31,125 nucleotides of DNA from a virus: positions 1-31,125 of IMG/VR virus record IMGVR_UViG_3300029397_000033; one strand, written 5' to 3'. Numbering within the stretch: the stretch's first letter is position 1; each line of letters begins with the position of its first letter. Shown here in pieces: positions 4,165-17,360 of the stretch. Both the position numbers and the translations under genes were made by a program. Below the pieces are notes generated by a model. It was not told the origin of the DNA. It saw nothing but the letters and a program-made list of their open reading frames with translations, and searched no databases.

Positions 4165-4557
4165 TCACCCCTGTTGCAACTTGATGCGGATGGGCACATC
4201 TATCTCCATGCCAGACCAGGCGGCGACATTGTGGATGTACGCTGCAACGTCGTTTTCCTTCGCAGGCGCATATTTTGAGATCAGCTCCCTCAGCGTCAGT
4301 CCCCGGGAGATATCCATCCGCACTTGTCGACGCACTCCTTCCACGCCTTCGGCGTATGACTTCCAGCCGGCCCACAGCCGTCCATTAGGTGACAGCCTTA
4401 CGGGAACTGCACCGCGCTGGCGAGCCCAGACCAGGTGTCCGGGATTGTGGAGGCCAAACCGTTTGACCATGTGAGTGTGAACCGACTTGGGGTCGCTTCC
4501 TCCTTCTTGGCGGATGATGGCCTGGGCGATTGCTTCAACGCACTCGTCGAGTGTCAT
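4165..4557 (-). CDS. Phage muramidase/endolysin-like protein
   Basis: A 130-residue protein with the layout of small phage lysozyme-like proteins: an N-terminal helix ending in RQEGG (E18, candidate catalytic acid), a HNPGHL motif at 37-42 (family form NNPGNL), GWKSY at about 64-68, then TLRELISKYAP at 88-98 and a final AAYIHNVAAWSG. The role inferred from this family is cleavage of peptidoglycan, either in lysis or as a virion-associated enzyme. The ATG at 4557 is chosen because AAGGAG lies nine bases upstream; the frame stays open further upstream, but that part is not protein-like. It is the last gene of the late cluster, downstream of the fibre genes, as is usual for lysis genes. Replacement of the usual first Asn of NNPGN by His is noted. 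Confidence 0.7.
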   Translation of the reverse strand: MTLDECVEAIAQAIIRQEGGSDPKSVHTHMVKRFGLHNPGHLVWARQRGAVPVRLSPNGRLWAGWKSYAEGVEGVRRQVRMDISRGLTLRELISKYAPAKENDVAAYIHNVAAWSGMEIDVPIRIKLQQG

Positions 4558-4790
4558 GAATGAATGCTCCTTGGATGACTTTGTGGCTGCTGGGGAAGTG
4601 ATGGGGCCGTGCGCAGGTCCGGACGTGACTTCTTGGGCCTGGTGGTTTGGATTTGGACTTACAGGGAGGCAATGCCAACCCGATCTCCAGGGCGGTCCCA
4701 AGCCCGGGAGATCTCGGCAGGGCAGCCGGCCTTGCGCTCCACTTACACGCAGACTGCGGCGAGTTCTAGGAGTGCAGTAGGCTTGACAGT

Positions 4791-5120
4791 CTATACCTCA
4801 GGTGGGAGGAGCTGAATGGGCTGGATGTTGGCGGCGGCGATAATGGCTTCCGCTTCCTGTTGCAGCGCCGCGGCCTGAGCCAGCTTATCCAGAGCTTCTT
4901 GGGGCTGCGCATCGGGGAACGCATCTACGACGGGCTTCAGGATCTTGGTGTAGCACTCCTTAGCAAAGAACTCGGTCTTGCTGTTGATGTGGACGCCGAG
5001 AACCGGGTTGGTGTTAACCGCCTGGATGTACTGCTCCAGCTTGGTCACAACTTCGGCCGGAACGATGAAGGCCGACTGCACATCGCCTTCCTCTTGGAAT
5101 GTGATTGTGATTTTGGGCAT
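4791..5120 (-). CDS. Hypothetical phage protein near the fibre genes
   Basis: A 109-residue acidic protein, family not recognised. The N-terminal third is beta-like (ITITFQEEGDVQSAFIVP); the C-terminal half is Ala/Gln/Glu-rich and probably helical (about 75-100), ending in a proline-rich LLPPEV. There is no signal peptide or membrane segment. It lies ten bases after the stop codon of the glycine-rich adhesin gene and so belongs to the end of the late operon. The role could be a fibre-assembly or accessory structural protein; this is inferred from position only. Confidence 0.6.
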   Translation of the reverse strand: MPKITITFQEEGDVQSAFIVPAEVVTKLEQYIQAVNTNPVLGVHINSKTEFFAKECYTKILKPVVDAFPDAQPQEALDKLAQAAALQQEAEAIIAAANIQPIQLLPPEV

Positions 5121-5130
5121 GAGAAACTTT

Positions 5131-5928
5131 CTAGTCGTCTGAATCTGTTACTACGATGAGTCTCGGTTTGCCTGTGACTGCTGTGTAGGTGAGGCGCACG
5201 AAACCGGGACCACCATTGCCGCCCGATACATATTGAGTCGTTGGTTGATAAGTGGTCCCGCCTGATCCACCGCCCCCATAATTGCCGCCATTCGTACCGC
5301 TGCCCTGTGCGTTATTGCCTACGGCTCCTGCCCCACCGTACTCCGATTTAGCCCCTCCAGCCGTGAGATAGGATGCCGCTAGGCCTTGTCCTGTCGAGCC
5401 CGCACCACCACCACCAGCACCGCCACCGCCTGACCCCACTGGACAACACAAATAGGAACCAAGCCCACCATTCCCGCCCATATATCTCACGTCACCGTTG
5501 GTTTGGGAGAAGTCGCCGTAGCCACCCTGCCCAGTAGTATAGGTAGTCGGTCCAGCAGGACGGCCTCCCTGTCCACCTTGAGCTTTGACCGTGCTGGTAG
5601 ACGAGAACCATGTAGGGTTGCCGTCCGACCCAGCAAACTCTCCTGGTCCGCCCCCAACTCCACCAGTGCCAATCGTGATTGTATGGACGTTTCCAGGAGT
5701 GACAGCGAGGGTCTTCTTCGCGTAAGAACCTCCAGCACCGCCGCCAGCAGCAGTGCCCCCGCTGTACCACTCTGCGCCACCGCCGCCTCCGCCTCCGCCC
5801 CAAACTTCCACAATGACTGAAGAGACACCAGCGGGAACCGTCCAGGTTGTTGAGCTTGGGAAGGTAACGACGGTCTGACCGCAGAGAGACGTAGCGACTA
5901 GGAGTATGAGAAGTAGTGTTCGTCTCAT
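5131..5928 (-). CDS. Glycine-rich phage adhesin/tail-tip protein with signal-like N-terminus
   Basis: A 265-residue protein. Residues 1-20 form a classic secretion-signal pattern (MRRT, then a Leu/Ile/Val core ending in SLCGQ). The next segment, TWTVPAGVSSVIVEVWGGGGGGGG, followed by long glycine-rich stretches, matches the glycine-rich domain used as receptor-binding tip in phage tail proteins. Several Gly runs and GGxGGxG repeats would form polyglycine-type packing. The ATG at 5928 overlaps the stop codon of the upstream gene (TAATG), so translation is coupled; a longer reading upstream overlaps that gene and is rejected. It is probably a receptor-binding adhesin. A signal peptide on a tail protein is odd, because virion proteins assemble in the cytoplasm. 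Confidence 0.7.
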   Translation of the reverse strand: MRRTLLLILLVATSLCGQTVVTFPSSTTWTVPAGVSSVIVEVWGGGGGGGGAEWYSGGTAAGGGAGGSYAKKTLAVTPGNVHTITIGTGGVGGGPGEFAGSDGNPTWFSSTSTVKAQGGQGGRPAGPTTYTTGQGGYGDFSQTNGDVRYMGGNGGLGSYLCCPVGSGGGGAGGGGAGSTGQGLAASYLTAGGAKSEYGGAGAVGNNAQGSGTNGGNYGGGGSGGTTYQPTTQYVSGGNGGPGFVRLTYTAVTGKPRLIVVTDSDD

Positions 5929-6674
5929 TATGGATAGCTCCGCGTGTACTTGATGCTGACTGAGAGATTCTTCACGCTGGAGACTGACGCAGTAGTGAAA
6001 CCCAACCCCTCCCCAGCCGTCAGCGTCCCATAACTGTTGATCGTGCTGGTGGAGGCTCCACCCGTGGCGCACGTCAGAGCCCCGGCCACGGCGTTACCGG
6101 CGGAATCCTTGATGGTCAACGAGACCGTCCCTGCATCGGTCCAGCAGGCGATCTCCGTGATCGTTGCATTGTAGGCGTGGACACGCCAGACGTTATTGAC
6201 GGTAGTGGCGTCAATCGCGGTGCTGGCGCTGCCGCCATACACGAAGTTGATCTGGTGCGCCTGGGAAGGAACAAGCGTCTTATATGCCTGGGCCGCTGTC
6301 ACGCGGCGCAAGAACTGATCCGACGTGGCGTAGAAGCTGGTCGGGGTGATTGCCTCATCACCATTTGACGCGTTGAAGTACGTGGCGTAGATGTAGCCAT
6401 TGCTGTCCCTCTGGGCAATGGTGTTCCCAGTTGCCGATGTGGCGATGGTTGGCTTATTGGTCACCTGCGCCCAATCCACAAATCCAGGTACCCACTTGGA
6501 CAGCGAGTTGTTCCAGAGGTAGACATTGAGATCGCTGGGAGCGGCTATGTCCACAGCCCGACCCTGGATCTTGGCGACGGTCGGTGCCGGAAGGGCACCG
6601 GACAAATCGCCGCCCGCCGTGATCTGGCCGTCTGCGGCACAGATGAACAGAACAAAACTCAGGAAAAGTCTCAT
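5928..6674 (-). CDS. Tail-fibre-like protein with signal-like N-terminus
   Basis: A 248-residue protein. The N-terminus (MRLFLSFVLFICAADG) looks like a short signal peptide, possibly cleaved after an Ala or Gly near residue 16. The middle contains phage-fibre type wording: DLSGALPAPTVAKIQG, WAQVTNKPT, QRDSNGYIYATYFN and TSDQFLRRVTAAQAY. The C-terminal 100 residues are rich in Thr, Ser, Ala and Val and look like a beta-sandwich tip. The start overlaps the end of the preceding fibre gene by four bases (ATGA), and its own end overlaps the adhesin start. A role as a fibre or fibre-tip subunit is likely. The signal-like start is unexplained, as in its downstream neighbour. Confidence 0.7.
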   Translation of the reverse strand: MRLFLSFVLFICAADGQITAGGDLSGALPAPTVAKIQGRAVDIAAPSDLNVYLWNNSLSKWVPGFVDWAQVTNKPTIATSATGNTIAQRDSNGYIYATYFNASNGDEAITPTSFYATSDQFLRRVTAAQAYKTLVPSQAHQINFVYGGSASTAIDATTVNNVWRVHAYNATITEIACWTDAGTVSLTIKDSAGNAVAGALTCATGGASTSTINSYGTLTAGEGLGFTTASVSSVKNLSVSIKYTRSYP

Positions 6675-7474
6675 AGGTCAATTACTCCGAAGCGCTTCCA
6701 GGTAGTCCCGCTGATGCAGATCCAGCCGACATGCCCACCAGCAATGGGGGCAGAGTTGAAGACGAGATCGCCAGCATTCCCACTGCCTGTTGGAGCCGTC
6801 GTGCTGTAGATCAGGCTGGTGCCTTCGCCGCCAGTGCCGCCAGCGCCAAACTCCCAGCCGTTATTCGCTGCGTTTCGCTTCAGGTATAGGCCACCAGCTC
6901 CAGTCGTATCCGGTGTGATGAGCTTGGACGCCAGATCGGTGACGAGATTCGCCACCTCTGCCTGAGAATGAGCGTGCGCTGACGGCGCAAACGTGGCTGG
7001 GACTCCAACGAGCTTTGCCCAATCCAGGCTGGTAATCCAGGCCGGATTTGCATAAGCGCCTGAGAGTGATGCTTTATCGGCCAGCGCTGCCGCGAGGCCG
7101 GTGACATCGGCCTGTATGTGACTGTGAGCAGCCGGCGTGAACGTCGCCGGAAGGTTCTGGAGGTAGTTCCAGTCCAGGTTGCCTTTGAGCGTCGTGCTGA
7201 GAATCGAGCCGTTCACCTGAAGCTTGTCGGTGCCATTGTCCGCTGCACCAATCAGAATGCGGCCGTTGGCCTCAACGACGATCGACTCAGCGATCGCGCC
7301 AGCCGCAGTGACCTTGGTGAGCCGGCCTATGTTGCTCAGCGATGCGCCGCCAGTGACATCACCGGATGAAGAGACAGTCGCCAACTCCGCGTTTAACGCC
7401 GCAAAATTGCCGTTCAAGATCTGCGCGAGTGCTGAGACCAGGTCGTAGTCGTGAATGGTCGTGAGATTGGCCAT
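6671..7474 (-). CDS. Phage tail fibre protein
   Basis: A 267-residue protein with fibre hallmarks. Two AH-x-H motifs (AAHSHIQADVTGL and SAHAHSQAEVANL), each followed by a short helix, occur about 50-60 residues apart; such HxH sites can bind metal in trimeric phage fibres. The N-terminal part (about 30-80) reads like a beta-structured shaft (GDVTGGASLSNIG, VVEANGRILIGAADNGTDKLQVNG). The C-terminus (STTAPTGSGNAGDLVFNSAP to WICISGTTWKRFG) resembles the last domain of many fibre proteins. No signal peptide is present, unlike the two following genes. The start ATG lies three bases after the preceding stop codon. It is the first of three coupled fibre/adhesin genes. Confidence 0.8.
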   Translation of the reverse strand: MANLTTIHDYDLVSALAQILNGNFAALNAELATVSSSGDVTGGASLSNIGRLTKVTAAGAIAESIVVEANGRILIGAADNGTDKLQVNGSILSTTLKGNLDWNYLQNLPATFTPAAHSHIQADVTGLAAALADKASLSGAYANPAWITSLDWAKLVGVPATFAPSAHAHSQAEVANLVTDLASKLITPDTTGAGGLYLKRNAANNGWEFGAGGTGGEGTSLIYSTTAPTGSGNAGDLVFNSAPIAGGHVGWICISGTTWKRFGVIDL

Positions 7475-7881: not shown

Positions 7882-10800
7882 TTAGTAACTGCCCATCGCG
7901 ACGCGGAACTTGTTTCCGGACTTCTTATAGACCAGCCAAAGCGTGGAACCGTCCCACCACGTTGCGAACTTGTCATCCGCCAGATAGCCACTCGGATCGT
8001 AGGTGTAGTAGCCCGAATATGGCCTGTCAACGATGCTGGCGTAGCTCACACCGGATACGCTGCTGGCTAAGATCGGCCCGTTCACCGTCAATGAACTGCA
8101 GGTGATTCTGTTGCTGACGTCCAAGTTGCCGGAAACACTCATCCCGGTGGCGTCCCACCAGCCGATTTTCGTCATTCCGGACCAAAGCTCATATTGGCCG
8201 AGACACCAAAAACGCGGAGTGGAGACGGTGGTCGATGCCAGTACGATAGGCGCGTGTAATCCAGACGAGTCGAGATATGCTGTAACACCGCCACCCACGA
8301 TGTTCACCCCATTGCTCGTGGCCTGGACATAGTTGGAGCCGTTTTGGATCAGCACCCCGGAGGAGTCCACTACCACTTGGCGCACACCGTCAGTCACACT
8401 GACAGAGCCGCCCCGAATCGTCATGCCGGCCGTGCTGATTGAGACGTAGTTACTGGCATTGGCGTACACCGCGCAGCCAGAACTGTCAATGACCACTTTG
8501 GAAGCAGGGTTGGAGGAACTGGCGAACACGGTCTGCCCGGTAAACAAAGCAGTCCCGGCGAGCAGCTTGTTCACGGCGATGGCATTAATGACCAGGACAC
8601 CACCAGATTTCGTGAACTCACCGCTATAGTTGTACGACTTGGCCAGATCCACGGCATACTGCGTAAGCTTGCCATTTCCATCCACGACGAAGTCCGCATT
8701 GAGGTTGAGTGCGATCTTCAGACTGCCGTCAAACTGAACGCCGCCGCCGAGCTTGGGCTGGAGCACGCCCCCCACCAGTTCCAGCCCGCTGCCGACCTTG
8801 GGCCGGAGCGTGTCGCCTGTGATCTCCAACCCGCTGCCCACCTTGGGCTGTAGCTTGCCGCCCACGACTTCGAGCGCGGCGAGACTGCCCGGCTTGGCGT
8901 GTCCAAGATCCAGGCCCCCGGTGGCCGGGATCGTCACGTTGAAATAGACGACCGCGGCATCGTTGACCAGTTCTTGCCAGTTCACTGGCCGGAAGCGATA
9001 GGTCCAGTATTCCGTCTGAGCCGGGCGTTTGATGTCCCTCACCACGAAAGATGCGCGTTCACCGAAGTCACCGTTCTCTTCATAAGTTGCGCCTGGAGCT
9101 GAATCATAATTGGCGTTGAGACGCCAGATCCGCCCCACCTTCATGTACCAGTAGTCCGGTGAATTTGAAGGTGTGAAGTTGACAGCCAGGTCAAAGTACT
9201 CCGAGCCGTCAACGACGTGGACGTTCTGCGGAACTATGGAGTACGCTGTCGGCGCTCCGGGCATGCCCCATGCGTCGATGTCTACGTATCGGATGGGGCA
9301 CGAGGTGTCCACCGGCCGCCACACGCTTGCCGCTTGGCTGGCCGCGGTGATGAGCATGAACAGACGACATCCGTTCTTCGGCCGGCGATACCAACTGTCA
9401 AACGTATTGTTCGGCGACGTCAGATGCCCGACGAACTCCAGTGGATCCGGAGTGCCCGCGTATCCCAACGGCTTCTCACACACATAGGCCGAGATCAAGT
9501 CCGCTCCGGCGGGGATGGTGTAGGAGCCCACCACCAAGGCATAGAGATCGCCGTCCTCGCCGTTGGTGTATTGCGTAACCGCTAGGCTGAAATTGGAGAC
9601 TTGGCCAAGCGTTGTGCCGCCGCCCACATAGTCAGAGAGGTCCATTGTCAGCAGGACGCACGGGGTGTGATTGGCCGGCAGCCGATTCGTCACATCCGAG
9701 AGCAGAACCAACCGATTCGATCCGCCCCAAGTGCGGGGCAGGGCATAGATCACCCAGGTGATGATCTTGGAGGATAGAGTCTCTAAGTATTCCTTGGGTG
9801 GAGCAGGCACGATGAGTGTCGCAGTGAACGGCCTGCTGTCCTGTTCAGTACTGAACGCTCCGTAGTGCCAACCTTGGGGATAAAGCTGCAACGGGGCAGT
9901 CGGGTGCTGCGGTTCTGGGTCATCCTCTCGTGGAATCGTGAGGAACATCTCGCAACCGGCGAAGTTGCTGTCGAGCGGGCACTCGCCGGTGACGGAGACT
10001 TCGACATTGCCGGCCTCAGTCAAGCGCCAACTGGCCTGCAGATGGGTGACATCGGCTACAGTGACCTCGCCCACGGGAGCCGTCAGGGGCAGCGCAAGCG
10101 AGGCCGTGTGCGGTGTGTTGATCAGGTCGAGATTCTTTTCGTAGATCGGGCTGGCCGAGACGAGATAGATGGTGGCTGTGGAGTCAGCGTCGAATGGTCT
10201 CGGTACATCGACTTGGATGGTGTAGGAACCATCCAAGTCAATCAAGTTCCAATCGATACCGTGGCGCCCCCCAAACACAGCCTGAGGCGCGTCGCTCGGC
10301 ATGCGCACGTAAGCCACGACGGATTGAAATGAGCCACGAGGCGAGGGCGGCGTGAAGCGAACCGGAACAGTGATCTTGAGTTGGTCATTCAGCGGCTCCA
10401 GCGCCATCACATTGGTCACGTCGCCCGGAAGAAGGTCATAGGCGATTCGCTCAGGCAACGGCTCCGGTGTGACATCGGCAGGCTTCTCTCCGACCGTCAA
10501 GTCGTACATCGAGTCGGTGGTCGTTTCCCCTGCGACGTCGATGGACCAGTCTGGATTCAGGCGCCAACTCGTGACCCGGAATTCGCCAATCCCGCCGGGC
10601 ATCTCAGCAGAAGTCATCGAGCACACCATGCCGGGCTCGACATTGAGCGCTAAGACCGTGGTTCGGAATTGCACGCGCCGCGCAGAGAGCTGCTCTGCTG
10701 CCGTGATTCCGCCTAACTCTTCCCGCCCTTTGATCGTCGAGATGCGCGCCGCCTGGCTCTTGCTGGTCACGCCGAGTAGGTTGACGTTGGCCTTCAATGG

Positions 10801-12723
10801 GAGTCCCGTCGAGGTGATGTGATCGGAGTCTTTCCAATTGACGGTGTTCTGCTGGTAGCCGTACTCCTCGTCTGAGAAGGCCACGGTCAAATCGTTGAAG
10901 CGCGACGAGCGGCTCGACAGCTGGAGGCTGTTGAACAGGATGTTGCCGAGCGTGAAGGCTTCAAGCGCAGAGGAGTTGTAGCGGATGCCGAGCTTCAGCT
11001 TGCCGAAAGCCAGAGTGTAGTAGCCGAGGCAACTTCCCAGAATTTCCTGGATCCAATCGCGCAGCGGCTTCTCTTCCGCCACGATGCCTTGAAACGCAAA
11101 CTGGCGCTCGTCCCCAATGCCGATGATCTTGGCGACGGTGGTGTCGCAGACCGTTGCAGCCGTAATTGCCGCGGCTACATCGAACTCGGCCTGCTGAGTT
11201 TCATCCGAAGCCCAGAGCAAGCCGAGCCCGTTCAAATAGGTGTTGACGACGATCCAAATCGGATTCGTCAGCGACGTCTGCCAGCTTCGCGCGTACGGTC
11301 CGGAGCCAATCCACGTCCATCCGCCCAGGCCGCCTGTGACGTAGGCTGCCATCTTGCGCTCTTCGGAGCGGACGGGCTGAATACCTTTTTCGTCCGTTCG
11401 GCGAATCTGCAAGAAAGCGACGCCATCCAACGGATTCGCTGGCAGTGGCTGTCCGACCTCATCGAGTGCAAATGAGTCGCTACCGGCATCAGGCTGGTTG
11501 TTGGCGGCGGTCTCGTCCCCGCTCGTTGGCGTCCCGCCATAAGCTCGGCGCAGCCCGAGCGCTCCCGGTCCATGATGGGGCTGACCATCGAGAGTATGCC
11601 CGCTGCCATACCCGTTGATGGGGCCTCGCCCAGCCACGCCCAACGCCGCGAAATACTCGCTCTCATCCCGGCCCGCAATGACATCGCACTCCACGGGCAA
11701 GGCAGTGCTGGAGTTGACCCAGATGTCCTTGAGCGCGCGGCCATAGGCGGTGTCGTTGGCCACCGACACGCTCGTAATCCGGCTGATTCCCTTCTTGCCG
11801 CCGACGTTGACGGGCTGATTCGGGATATCGAAGGCGCGCCGCGGATCATCATCCTGGCGGGCGATCTTCCGCGCCGGATAGCCAAGCCTCAACGCATAGA
11901 GACCATCGTGGGCCTCGACGCGAAACTCGGGCCCACCATCAAACGACCAACTCCCAATGAAGCCCTTCCACAAGTCGAGCCGAGTTCGTGTCCCGACGTG
12001 GAAGACCGAGAAAGCCACTTCTGCTTTGAACAGGTCGACCTGGTTGACCAGCGCCGAAAACACGCGATCGCCGTTGCCAAACGTGAAGCTCGCCTGGTCT
12101 GCTTCGCCGTTGATGCCTTGGCTGATGCCACCCCAACTCATCAAACGAGGCTGGTAGAGATGGCCACCAACGGACACGCGCCGATCGGACAAGTAGAAGT
12201 CATCTAGCCCGGCATTGACCTGGACGAGTGGGATTACCTCCTGGGCCTGCGACAGCAATGCCGCTTTGAGACCACTTCCAGGGAACCGGGTCTCTGTGGC
12301 AGCGATTTCGTAGCTTGGCGTGGCGGTGGGTACTTCGAACAGTTCCACGGCGCCTCGCCACGAGCCATCGGCTGAAGCTTCAAGCTGCAGGGATGGCTGC
12401 GCGAAGCGAGCCGTGAAGGAGGAGTCGGAGCCATTCGGCTCGGCGACATTCAACGTGAATGGCTGGTAGCTGCCCCGGCGCGATTCGAAGAACTCGACCA
12501 GCGCCGTCCGGCGCGCCGACGTGAGCCGAGTCAATTGCACCTGGAAGGTCCGGACTCCGGGGCCTTCATAGAAGCGCTGTTCTATCTTCGCGTCGAGCGT
12601 CCCGAATTGATGCACCACCACGCGTGGCTCACGCACGGAGACACTCGAGTAGTCCAGTGGGACAGGAAACGTGCCGCTCACCCCGGGGTCGGGGATCGCG
12701 ATAGGTCCTATGAATTCGGGCAT
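7882..12723 (-). CDS. Giant tail-hub/tail-tip protein with fibre tail (J-like)
   Basis: A 1613-residue protein forming the tail tip. Approximate layout by eye: 15-140 an M-like or DUF2460-like domain (FEFFESRRGSYQPF, then GSWRGAVELFEV); 150-320 an L-like or DUF2163-like hub domain (AGLDDFYLSDRRV, LWKGFIGSW, EAHDGLYALRLGYPARK); 430-770 a J-like part (TNPIWIVVNTYLNGLGL, then EEKPLRDWIQEILGS, then EFRVTSWRLNPDW); 780-1260 Fn3-like beta domains; 1283-1327 three 15-residue repeats; the remainder a fibre-like C-terminus with VVxDSSG repeats. The ATG at 12723 lies two bases after the M-like gene; a TTG at 12753 would add ten residues, and neither has an ideal ribosome binding site. The role is to bind the tail tube end and contact the host receptor. 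No separate K or I homologue follows, so this protein may replace them. Confidence 0.85.
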   Translation of the reverse strand: MPEFIGPIAIPDPGVSGTFPVPLDYSSVSVREPRVVVHQFGTLDAKIEQRFYEGPGVRTFQVQLTRLTSARRTALVEFFESRRGSYQPFTLNVAEPNGSDSSFTARFAQPSLQLEASADGSWRGAVELFEVPTATPSYEIAATETRFPGSGLKAALLSQAQEVIPLVQVNAGLDDFYLSDRRVSVGGHLYQPRLMSWGGISQGINGEADQASFTFGNGDRVFSALVNQVDLFKAEVAFSVFHVGTRTRLDLWKGFIGSWSFDGGPEFRVEAHDGLYALRLGYPARKIARQDDDPRRAFDIPNQPVNVGGKKGISRITSVSVANDTAYGRALKDIWVNSSTALPVECDVIAGRDESEYFAALGVAGRGPINGYGSGHTLDGQPHHGPGALGLRRAYGGTPTSGDETAANNQPDAGSDSFALDEVGQPLPANPLDGVAFLQIRRTDEKGIQPVRSEERKMAAYVTGGLGGWTWIGSGPYARSWQTSLTNPIWIVVNTYLNGLGLLWASDETQQAEFDVAAAITAATVCDTTVAKIIGIGDERQFAFQGIVAEEKPLRDWIQEILGSCLGYYTLAFGKLKLGIRYNSSALEAFTLGNILFNSLQLSSRSSRFNDLTVAFSDEEYGYQQNTVNWKDSDHITSTGLPLKANVNLLGVTSKSQAARISTIKGREELGGITAAEQLSARRVQFRTTVLALNVEPGMVCSMTSAEMPGGIGEFRVTSWRLNPDWSIDVAGETTTDSMYDLTVGEKPADVTPEPLPERIAYDLLPGDVTNVMALEPLNDQLKITVPVRFTPPSPRGSFQSVVAYVRMPSDAPQAVFGGRHGIDWNLIDLDGSYTIQVDVPRPFDADSTATIYLVSASPIYEKNLDLINTPHTASLALPLTAPVGEVTVADVTHLQASWRLTEAGNVEVSVTGECPLDSNFAGCEMFLTIPREDDPEPQHPTAPLQLYPQGWHYGAFSTEQDSRPFTATLIVPAPPKEYLETLSSKIITWVIYALPRTWGGSNRLVLLSDVTNRLPANHTPCVLLTMDLSDYVGGGTTLGQVSNFSLAVTQYTNGEDGDLYALVVGSYTIPAGADLISAYVCEKPLGYAGTPDPLEFVGHLTSPNNTFDSWYRRPKNGCRLFMLITAASQAASVWRPVDTSCPIRYVDIDAWGMPGAPTAYSIVPQNVHVVDGSEYFDLAVNFTPSNSPDYWYMKVGRIWRLNANYDSAPGATYEENGDFGERASFVVRDIKRPAQTEYWTYRFRPVNWQELVNDAAVVYFNVTIPATGGLDLGHAKPGSLAALEVVGGKLQPKVGSGLEITGDTLRPKVGSGLELVGGVLQPKLGGGVQFDGSLKIALNLNADFVVDGNGKLTQYAVDLAKSYNYSGEFTKSGGVLVINAIAVNKLLAGTALFTGQTVFASSSNPASKVVIDSSGCAVYANASNYVSISTAGMTIRGGSVSVTDGVRQVVVDSSGVLIQNGSNYVQATSNGVNIVGGGVTAYLDSSGLHAPIVLASTTVSTPRFWCLGQYELWSGMTKIGWWDATGMSVSGNLDVSNRITCSSLTVNGPILASSVSGVSYASIVDRPYSGYYTYDPSGYLADDKFATWWDGSTLWLVYKKSGNKFRVAMGSY
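8743..8877 (-). repeat. Three tandem 45-bp (15-residue) repeats in the tail-hub gene
   Basis: Three adjacent in-frame units follow the pattern GLExxGGxLxPKVGS (8833-8877, 8788-8832, 8743-8787); the third ends in KLGG. The units differ at several bases, so they are old rather than newly copied. Each unit may form one turn of a beta-structured shaft joining the hub part to the fibre-like C-terminus. Confidence 0.8.
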
Positions 12724-12724
12724 G

Positions 12725-13114
12725 CTATTCGACTTGAAGGAGGCGGAGACCAATCTCCTGGCGGCCGAGGCGATAAGTACGGCTCAACGCGCCGTCAAAG
12801 CGCACGAGCCAGCGGCCGATCATGGATGCACCCGTGGGGTCGTAATCAGCGACAAGGGGGTACCAATGGAACGCTTGCTGCGAGCCATTTCTGGCATCAA
12901 AGAAAGTCCGCAGTTCCAGCCACTGCGCGAACGTCAGCAGCTTGGTGATCTCCCAGGATTTGCGGCTCGTGACCGCCTGCGGCTCCGCCTGGTAGCGTCC
13001 ATCCGGATAGCCGCCGCTTTCGCGGACAGACCACACGCGCATCTCACGAAAGAGGGCGCAGAGATGGTTCGGCAGGACCGCCACCGGGGTTGCTGGGGTC
13101 ACATTGCCGGGCAT
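12725..13114 (-). CDS. M-like minor tail protein
   Basis: A 129-residue protein with the pattern of lambda gpM-type minor tail proteins: an early WSVRESGGYPDGRYQ stretch, then WEITKLLTFAQWLELRTFFDARNGSQQAFHWYPL (an aromatic-rich core in which a polymer end region is added to the tail tip), and a final RFDGALSRTYRLGRQEIGLRL. It lies between the tape measure and the tail-hub genes, the place of M in lambda. The start ATG at 13114 is preceded by a 390-base gap that contains an opposite-strand gene. The stop codon is one base from the start of the hub gene. The hub itself begins with a similar domain, which suggests duplication. Confidence 0.7.
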   Translation of the reverse strand: MPGNVTPATPVAVLPNHLCALFREMRVWSVRESGGYPDGRYQAEPQAVTSRKSWEITKLLTFAQWLELRTFFDARNGSQQAFHWYPLVADYDPTGASMIGRWLVRFDGALSRTYRLGRQEIGLRLLQVE

Positions 13115-16737: not shown

Positions 16738-16799
16738 GCAAAATCTGATTAGACGGGTGATACACTTGGGATCGCGTCACTCAGAAAGGAATGGTCTTC

Positions 16800-17360
16800 A
16801 TGAACCTCAAGCCCTGCTCGCTAGTTGTAAGTCTTTGCATTAGCTGCGCATTTGCCCAGGAAGCAACAGAACAGAAGAAAGCTCCGTCCACTAAATTGGA
16901 GGCGTTCCAGTCACGAACAGGCGTCGTGCTTATCCGGGGCTTTTCGCGGGTTGGTACTTTCAGCGGGTCATTAGGGGGCAGCGTATCCGTGGCCGCGCGG
17001 GAGTTCCGCGATGGTAGTAACCCAAGCATGCCACGTGCAGTGGGAATTTCCGTTAGTGTCAAAGCGCCGGGCAGACTTGAACGAGAGAACACTTCTTACA
17101 TTGACCTTGAAGAGATCGATTCGCTGCTCAAGGGTATTGAGTACATATCAAAAGCCAGCAAAGACGTCACCAAACTCGGTCAGTTTGAGATCGACTATCG
17201 AACTAAAGGGGACTTGCGAGTCACCGTGTTCAATAACCAACAGGGTGAGGTGTCTGCCGCCATTTCAAGCGGAACGATCGGAAGGGCTGATGTGTTTGTG
17301 AGCCTTTCGGACTTGGGGAGACTTCGTGAACTGATCTCCGCGGCCAAAGACTTGCTGTAG
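16800..17360 (+). CDS. Secreted protein inserted in the tail operon (candidate moron)
   Basis: A 186-residue protein on the strand opposite to the tail genes. Residues 1-20 form a clear signal peptide (KPCSLVVSLCISCAFAQ, probable cleavage after AFA), so the mature protein would be periplasmic or exported. The rest is a single small domain of alternating beta and helical segments (FSRVGTFSGSLGGSVSVAAREF, SYIDLEEIDSLLKGIEYISKA, GQFEIDYRTKGDLRVTVFNN, RADVFVSLSDLGRLRELISAA). I do not recognise the family. The ATG at 16800 is chosen because AGAAAGGA lies nine bases upstream; an ATG at 16791 directly abuts it and is too close. It sits between the tape measure and the chaperone genes, divergent from the first, and may alter the lysogenic host. 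Confidence 0.75.
   Translation: MNLKPCSLVVSLCISCAFAQEATEQKKAPSTKLEAFQSRTGVVLIRGFSRVGTFSGSLGGSVSVAAREFRDGSNPSMPRAVGISVSVKAPGRLERENTSYIDLEEIDSLLKGIEYISKASKDVTKLGQFEIDYRTKGDLRVTVFNNQQGEVSAAISSGTIGRADVFVSLSDLGRLRELISAAKDLL

Follow-up and report, generated by a model that had tools for sequence, protein, structure and literature searches.

Secretion-signal-like starts on two tail-cluster adhesins of an Acidobacteria prophage point to probable export from the cytoplasm

Since tailed virions are put together in the cytoplasm, their fibres are assumed to stay there as well, and tailed phages are not known to assemble parts of the particle elsewhere. Exported proteins adjoining receptor-binding genes are already known, namely Llp, Cor and Lom. 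In phage T5, llp lies directly downstream of the gene for the receptor-binding protein pb5; Llp blocks FhuA by a mechanism other than adhesin occupancy, and added pb5 also blocks (PMC9586334). Lom, a signal-peptide protein of phage lambda, has its gene between J and the side-fibre genes (PMC12309495). In a 2025 study, some 'outer membrane' proteins encoded behind the spike were argued to be virion parts, on the grounds of modelling and one SDS-PAGE band (PMC12309495). For Sec signals on tail fibres as a conserved class, no report was found in the open-access literature, which is weak evidence of absence.

The DNA analysed here (the window) is a viral stretch of 31,125 nt occupied by a minus-strand lambda-type prophage. 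Its head genes comprise terminase, portal, head protease and major head protein, and a long protein without PHROG match stands at the tape-measure position. The tail cluster, encoded on the minus strand, runs in the order J, fibre C, B, A, S and an endolysin-like gene. The J-like central tail protein (7882–12753; phrog_31, Phage-tail_3) is followed by gene C (6671–7474), a tail fibre without signal peptide whose N-terminal head is conserved (MANLTTI..NGNFAALNAEL). Gene B (5928–6674) encodes a putatively secreted fibre-like adhesin of 248 aa, and gene A (5131–5928) a putatively secreted glycine-rich adhesin of 265 aa (Pfam Gly_rich_2, phrog_863). After A comes S (4791–5120), a small companion protein without signal peptide, of which a paralogue sits after J in related phages, and the endolysin-like gene (4165–4701, start uncertain) adjoins the cluster.

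S-type proteins were seen behind J or A (L004:3275-3622, L024:4999-5352, window 4791–5120), and S also lies behind signal-less fibres in L011 and L012; it is possibly a tail-fibre companion or chaperone. RHS/YD-repeat-like genes were noted at the left flank of the prophage (379–2682). On the plus strand, opposite to the tail genes, a 189-aa ORF (16791–17360) with the in-frame start MNLKPCSLVVSLCISCAFA|QEATEQKK appears to encode a further signal-peptide protein of the prophage, with a host-type A|Q junction; it is moron-like and without Pfam match.

The earlier note had described secretion-signal-like starts on B and A and none on the upstream fibre C. Both statements hold, and the coordinates and strand given for B and A are exact. 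The predicted signal peptide of B has 16 aa (6627–6674, minus strand; MRLFLSFVLFICAADG|QITAGG) and that of A 17 aa (5878–5928, minus strand; MRRTLLLILLVATSLCG|QTVVTF), cleavage being predicted before the glutamine. Both N-termini consist of a basic start, an uncharged hydrophobic core and small residues at −3 and −1. A lipobox is absent from both proteins, and the junction is G|Q in both. The start codons are firm, because the ATG of B overlaps the stop of fibre C by 4 nt (ATGA, 6671–6674), the ATG of A overlaps the stop of B by 1 nt (TAATG at 5928), and GGAG ribosome-binding sites lie 9–10 nt upstream of both (6685–6688 for B, 5938–5941 for A; minus strand).

Signal peptides were called by a home-made rule demanding A, G or S at −1, not Gln at +1. 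By this rule the prediction proposed in the earlier note was positive for B and for A. In the related phage loci it passed 16 of 83 ORFs, 13 of which were B/A-type genes; over the whole set it passed 33 of 33 proteins of the signal-bearing class versus 0 of 43 other tail-cluster proteins, the latter being hand-picked controls. The same rule passed 126 of 720 host ORFs. An n-, h- and c-region with small −3/−1 residues was present in all 33 proteins, and recurrence in related loci excludes signal peptides arising by chance.

When compared with the described systems, B and A share with T5 Llp and T1-type Cor, which are exported superinfection-exclusion proteins, the predicted export, and with Llp the position directly after a receptor-binding gene. 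Llp and Cor, however, are small lipoproteins (Llp acting from the periplasm), whereas B and A carry signals of the signal peptidase I type and larger, fibre- or lectin-like bodies. Lom resembles them in its signal peptide and gene position but is an outer-membrane beta-barrel; a Pfam scan of A and B gave no barrel family match, nor did it reveal an autotransporter C-terminal translocator domain. The small 'outer membrane' proteins after the spike in Dhillonvirus, Traversvirus and Littlefixvirus are likewise annotated as exported, lie in a receptor-binding cluster and may be virion parts, the likeness to B and A lying in annotation and position. Canonical tail fibres (e.g., that of L099; phrog_2885, phrog_4406) have an N-terminal domain homologous to that in sister phages and the same fibre repeat families, but no signal peptide and no cysteine pair.

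Relatives of B and of its C-terminal domain were found in four viral contigs (L002–L005) and six Acidobacteria genome stretches, five of the six named Bryobacteraceae. In all ten intact loci (window, L002–L005, L021, L022, L024–L026), a signal peptide on B was followed by a second signal-peptide gene at the A position, and homologues of either gene starting after the hydrophobic part were found in none of the ten. Because the L026 contig ends within the A gene, nine A proteins are complete. L024 contains a third signal-peptide gene between B and A (L024:7327-8040), encoding a Dockerin_1 domain. A tblastn search of GenBank phages for A, B and the L127 fibre found nothing, and neither did a search of viral contigs with A alone. 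In the same genome the B/A cluster is present a second time, in decayed form, at G000:C13:51814-52119 (L015), where the body of A is another one (MIRIAAILLMTCSLWA|DTKRS).

These proteins count as fibres or adhesins by their sequence similarity to fibre proteins and by their position after J in all loci. Window B had no PHROG match; its relatives match phrog_14, 9574 and 8443, its middle part is similar to phage protein L006, and A matches phrog_863 and others. The fibre families matched by the signal-less window C are also matched by the signal-bearing B of L024. B ends in a predicted beta-sandwich of 110 aa (5931–6260, minus strand) with invariant Cys177 and Cys202, a domain common to 10 phages. 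Structure prediction yielded a pLDDT of 50 for full-length B and 85 for this domain alone, whose predicted fold matched phage 7-7-1 tail fibres, a cyanophage Pam1 capsid chain and CBM36 (Z 8–10); such matches of a model reflect a common beta-sandwich type and say nothing on function.

The C-terminus of A is a short tag (PRLIVVTDSDD; 5134–5169, minus strand) common to A proteins with unrelated bodies. A PRLIVVTDSD-type tag ends 9 of 9 complete A proteins and none of the 720 host ORFs. The bodies at the A position vary between phages: Gly_rich_2 in the window (5185–5856, minus strand; 70.7 bits against PF21722, gathering cut-off 24.3), DUF2341 with LamG in L002, and others without Pfam match. 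Window A therefore has the body of Gly_rich_2 proteins (PF21722, phrog_863) but adds a signal peptide and the C-terminal tag.

Gln occupied +1 in 29 of the 33 predicted cleavage sites. At +1 of host signal peptides, too, Gln is more frequent than any other residue, and [AGS]Q stood at 46 of 126 host junctions (37%) versus a background of 7%; these host statistics derive from about 1 Mb of genome stretches with 720 ORFs. The G|Q junction of B and A is thus of the kind favoured by the Bryobacteraceae host.

The number of mature cysteines was even in 18 of the 20 nonredundant signal-bearing proteins with any cysteine (p = 2e-4), the odd counts belonging to A of L002 and the second gene of L127. 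Among signal-less tail-cluster neighbours it was even in 12 of 26 (Fisher p = 0.002 versus the signal-bearing proteins), and cysteine density was 1.34 per 100 aa in signal-bearing versus 0.79 in signal-less proteins. In a fibre domain common to both kinds of protein, the copies with a signal peptide all have a cysteine pair (ILICS...NTLTVCSGGRG), whereas the full-domain copies without a signal peptide all have one cysteine (LIVYTG...FTGCQRG). Since copies without a signal are also present in prophage-like elements from the genus to which the window's host belongs, the host was rejected as the cause of the cysteine difference.

In the L002/L003/L021 pairs, the signal segment was 40–47% identical and the mature part 86–88%, while charge, hydrophobicity and cleavage junction were kept; in other pairs both parts diverged alike. 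The fast change in some pairs appears, on these alignments, to be what cleaved signals do. From junctions, cysteines and drift, all visible in the sequence, we infer export, cleavage and oxidation.

Signal-bearing fibres were also met outside the B/A phages. A search of IMG/VR with J yielded 80 loci, in which forward-strand signal-peptide genes behind J were almost confined to a minority (L086, L087, L127, L140 and the B/A phages); the majority of contigs with a J carried no such gene behind it. Searching with the fibre head domain of L127, L140 and L087 added L163 and L165, so that signal peptides were found on fibre proteins of six further phages. In five of them (L087, L127, L140, L163, L165) the signal peptide directly precedes a fibre N-terminal domain homologous to that of the signal-less L099 fibre (hhalign probability 95.6, E 1.3e-8). 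L163 carries three tandem signal-bearing fibre paralogues (L163:4956-8599) with a common head and diverging ends, which look like a store of alternative adhesins, and the signal-bearing fibres of L165 have 950 and 805 aa with 18 mature cysteines each. The B/A set and this wider set are connected through L127, where an A-like tag (VQVIVVTSGPAR) ends the second gene and a B-like C-terminal domain ends the fibre. The hosts of the six phages are presumptive, since a phylum-wide search of 297 genomes with fibre domain A10 gave no match.

On host chromosomes, too, there are loci for secreted fibre-like proteins that contain B-related domains (L014/L038, of another family, and L195–L197), so that phage fibres and the adhesins secreted by hosts have likely exchanged modules. 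The TC..W..C-type motif present in the bodies of L004 B and L005 B is also found in L196. Tandem signal-peptide pairs occur among the host genes as well. Two such pairs (L196:4299-9955 and L038:8485-14215), a fibre-like protein of ~546 aa followed by one of ~1340–1370 aa, resemble the B–A arrangement. The suggestion that the phage genes were rebuilt from host secreted proteins is partly supported, in that host fibre-like proteins share B domains and the L024 cluster includes a dockerin protein. In a separate observation, elements with a J of about 1250 aa, a protein of 1270–1280 aa and a signal-less fibre of 622–635 aa (L186, L187, L191, L194) were met repeatedly in Bryobacteraceae genomes; the DNA directly after them has few other phage genes, and they are possibly domesticated tail elements.

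Taken together, B and A can with good confidence be predicted to be Sec-exported, oxidised adhesins, and their export and processing appear very likely from sequence features. The proposal that they are exported by the lysogen is strongly supported as regards export, given the recurrent signals, the A/G|Q junction and the paired cysteines; the lysogen fits less well. As B and A are translationally coupled and lie within the tail operon, with fibre C before them and a lysis gene after them, late lytic expression is more likely, and their synthesis probably falls late, with that operon.

In the explanation preferred here, to which as a whole we give a probability of roughly 0.6, B and A would be produced late along with the tail operon, recognised by the host Sec machinery and cleaved at the (A/G)|Q junction by signal peptidase I. 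Disulphide-bonded folding would take place outside the cytoplasm, in the periplasm. A would be a replaceable binding body between signal peptide and constant C-terminal tag, and B a set of fibre modules ending in a constant beta-sandwich. Both would wait in the periplasm until the holin opens the inner membrane and then dock onto finished virions, so that the fibre set would be completed outside the cytoplasm.

In lambda-type lysis, cytoplasm and periplasm mix through holin lesions before the outer membrane breaks, and free fibres or spikes of T4 and P22 join finished particles in vitro. Docking during lysis is itself a tentative step, which we rate somewhat below even odds and prefer to masking. 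It is favoured because a fibre head domain is kept behind the signal in L087, L127, L140, L163 and L165, which would be difficult to account for in proteins that have no contact with virions. Window B and A are themselves without this N-terminal domain that supports docking in the sister phages, and the export may be unrelated to virions, as host chromosomes contain secreted relatives.

The masking just mentioned would make B and A masks or decoys, secreted late, that bind the phage receptor or the glycans on the surface of a dying cell and of its remains. Progeny would then be prevented from adsorbing again, or related phages kept out, in the manner of T5 Llp or T1 Cor but by proteins with a fibre-type body. 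All the export evidence applies to it, the bodies are variable and of carbohydrate-binding type, and the place of B/A directly behind fibre genes recalls that of llp, adjacent to and downstream of pb5, where purified pb5 alone blocks infection (PMC9586334), as well as that of lom, which J and the side-fibre genes flank (PMC12309495). Masking is nevertheless rather unlikely in our view: B and A have no lipobox and match no barrel family, the signal in sister phages is still followed by the fibre N-terminal domain, and A is followed by S, a small companion gene shared with signal-less fibres. Captured host adhesins, carried as passengers for attachment of the lysogen or phage population to soil particles or biofilm and without a role in adsorption, would account for the B-type motifs and C-terminal domains in fibre-like proteins that hosts secrete (L014, L195, L196, L197), the Dockerin_1 protein of the L024 cluster, and the second gene of L127, whose first half is unlike any phage family. 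Such passengers seem improbable given the strict gene order and translational coupling in the tail operon, the conserved C-terminal tag and phage-type C-terminal domain, and closest homologues that are borne by phages.

The idea, also raised in the earlier note, that an uncleaved hydrophobic N-terminus anchors B and A in the tail or baseplate while they stay cytoplasmic accords with genes in the tail cluster and fibre modules in common, but fares poorly otherwise. The segment drifts far faster than the mature part in some pairs yet retains charge, hydrophobicity and junction; an A/G|Q junction and paired cysteines are unexpected for an internal anchor, and the segment is present on all of several non-homologous proteins. 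We consider this very unlikely. A chance or gene-calling artefact, with the true starts after the hydrophobic stretch, is barely credible when the starts are fixed by stop/start overlaps and GGAG sites and the feature recurs in 10 loci and 33 proteins.

The docking route, if shown, would be a categorically new possibility. That tailed phages of Acidobacteria finish their virions by a secretory route, with Sec export, trimming, periplasmic disulphides and mounting at lysis, is conceivable, albeit doubtful. A conserved signal-bearing, cysteine-paired fibre class would mean either that virion adhesins can cross the periplasm or that phages export some of their adhesins to act on the host surface. 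Either meaning would change the annotation of receptor-binding genes, and would suggest that phages of the Acidobacteria, a dominant, little-studied soil phylum, have adhesins stabilised by oxidation.
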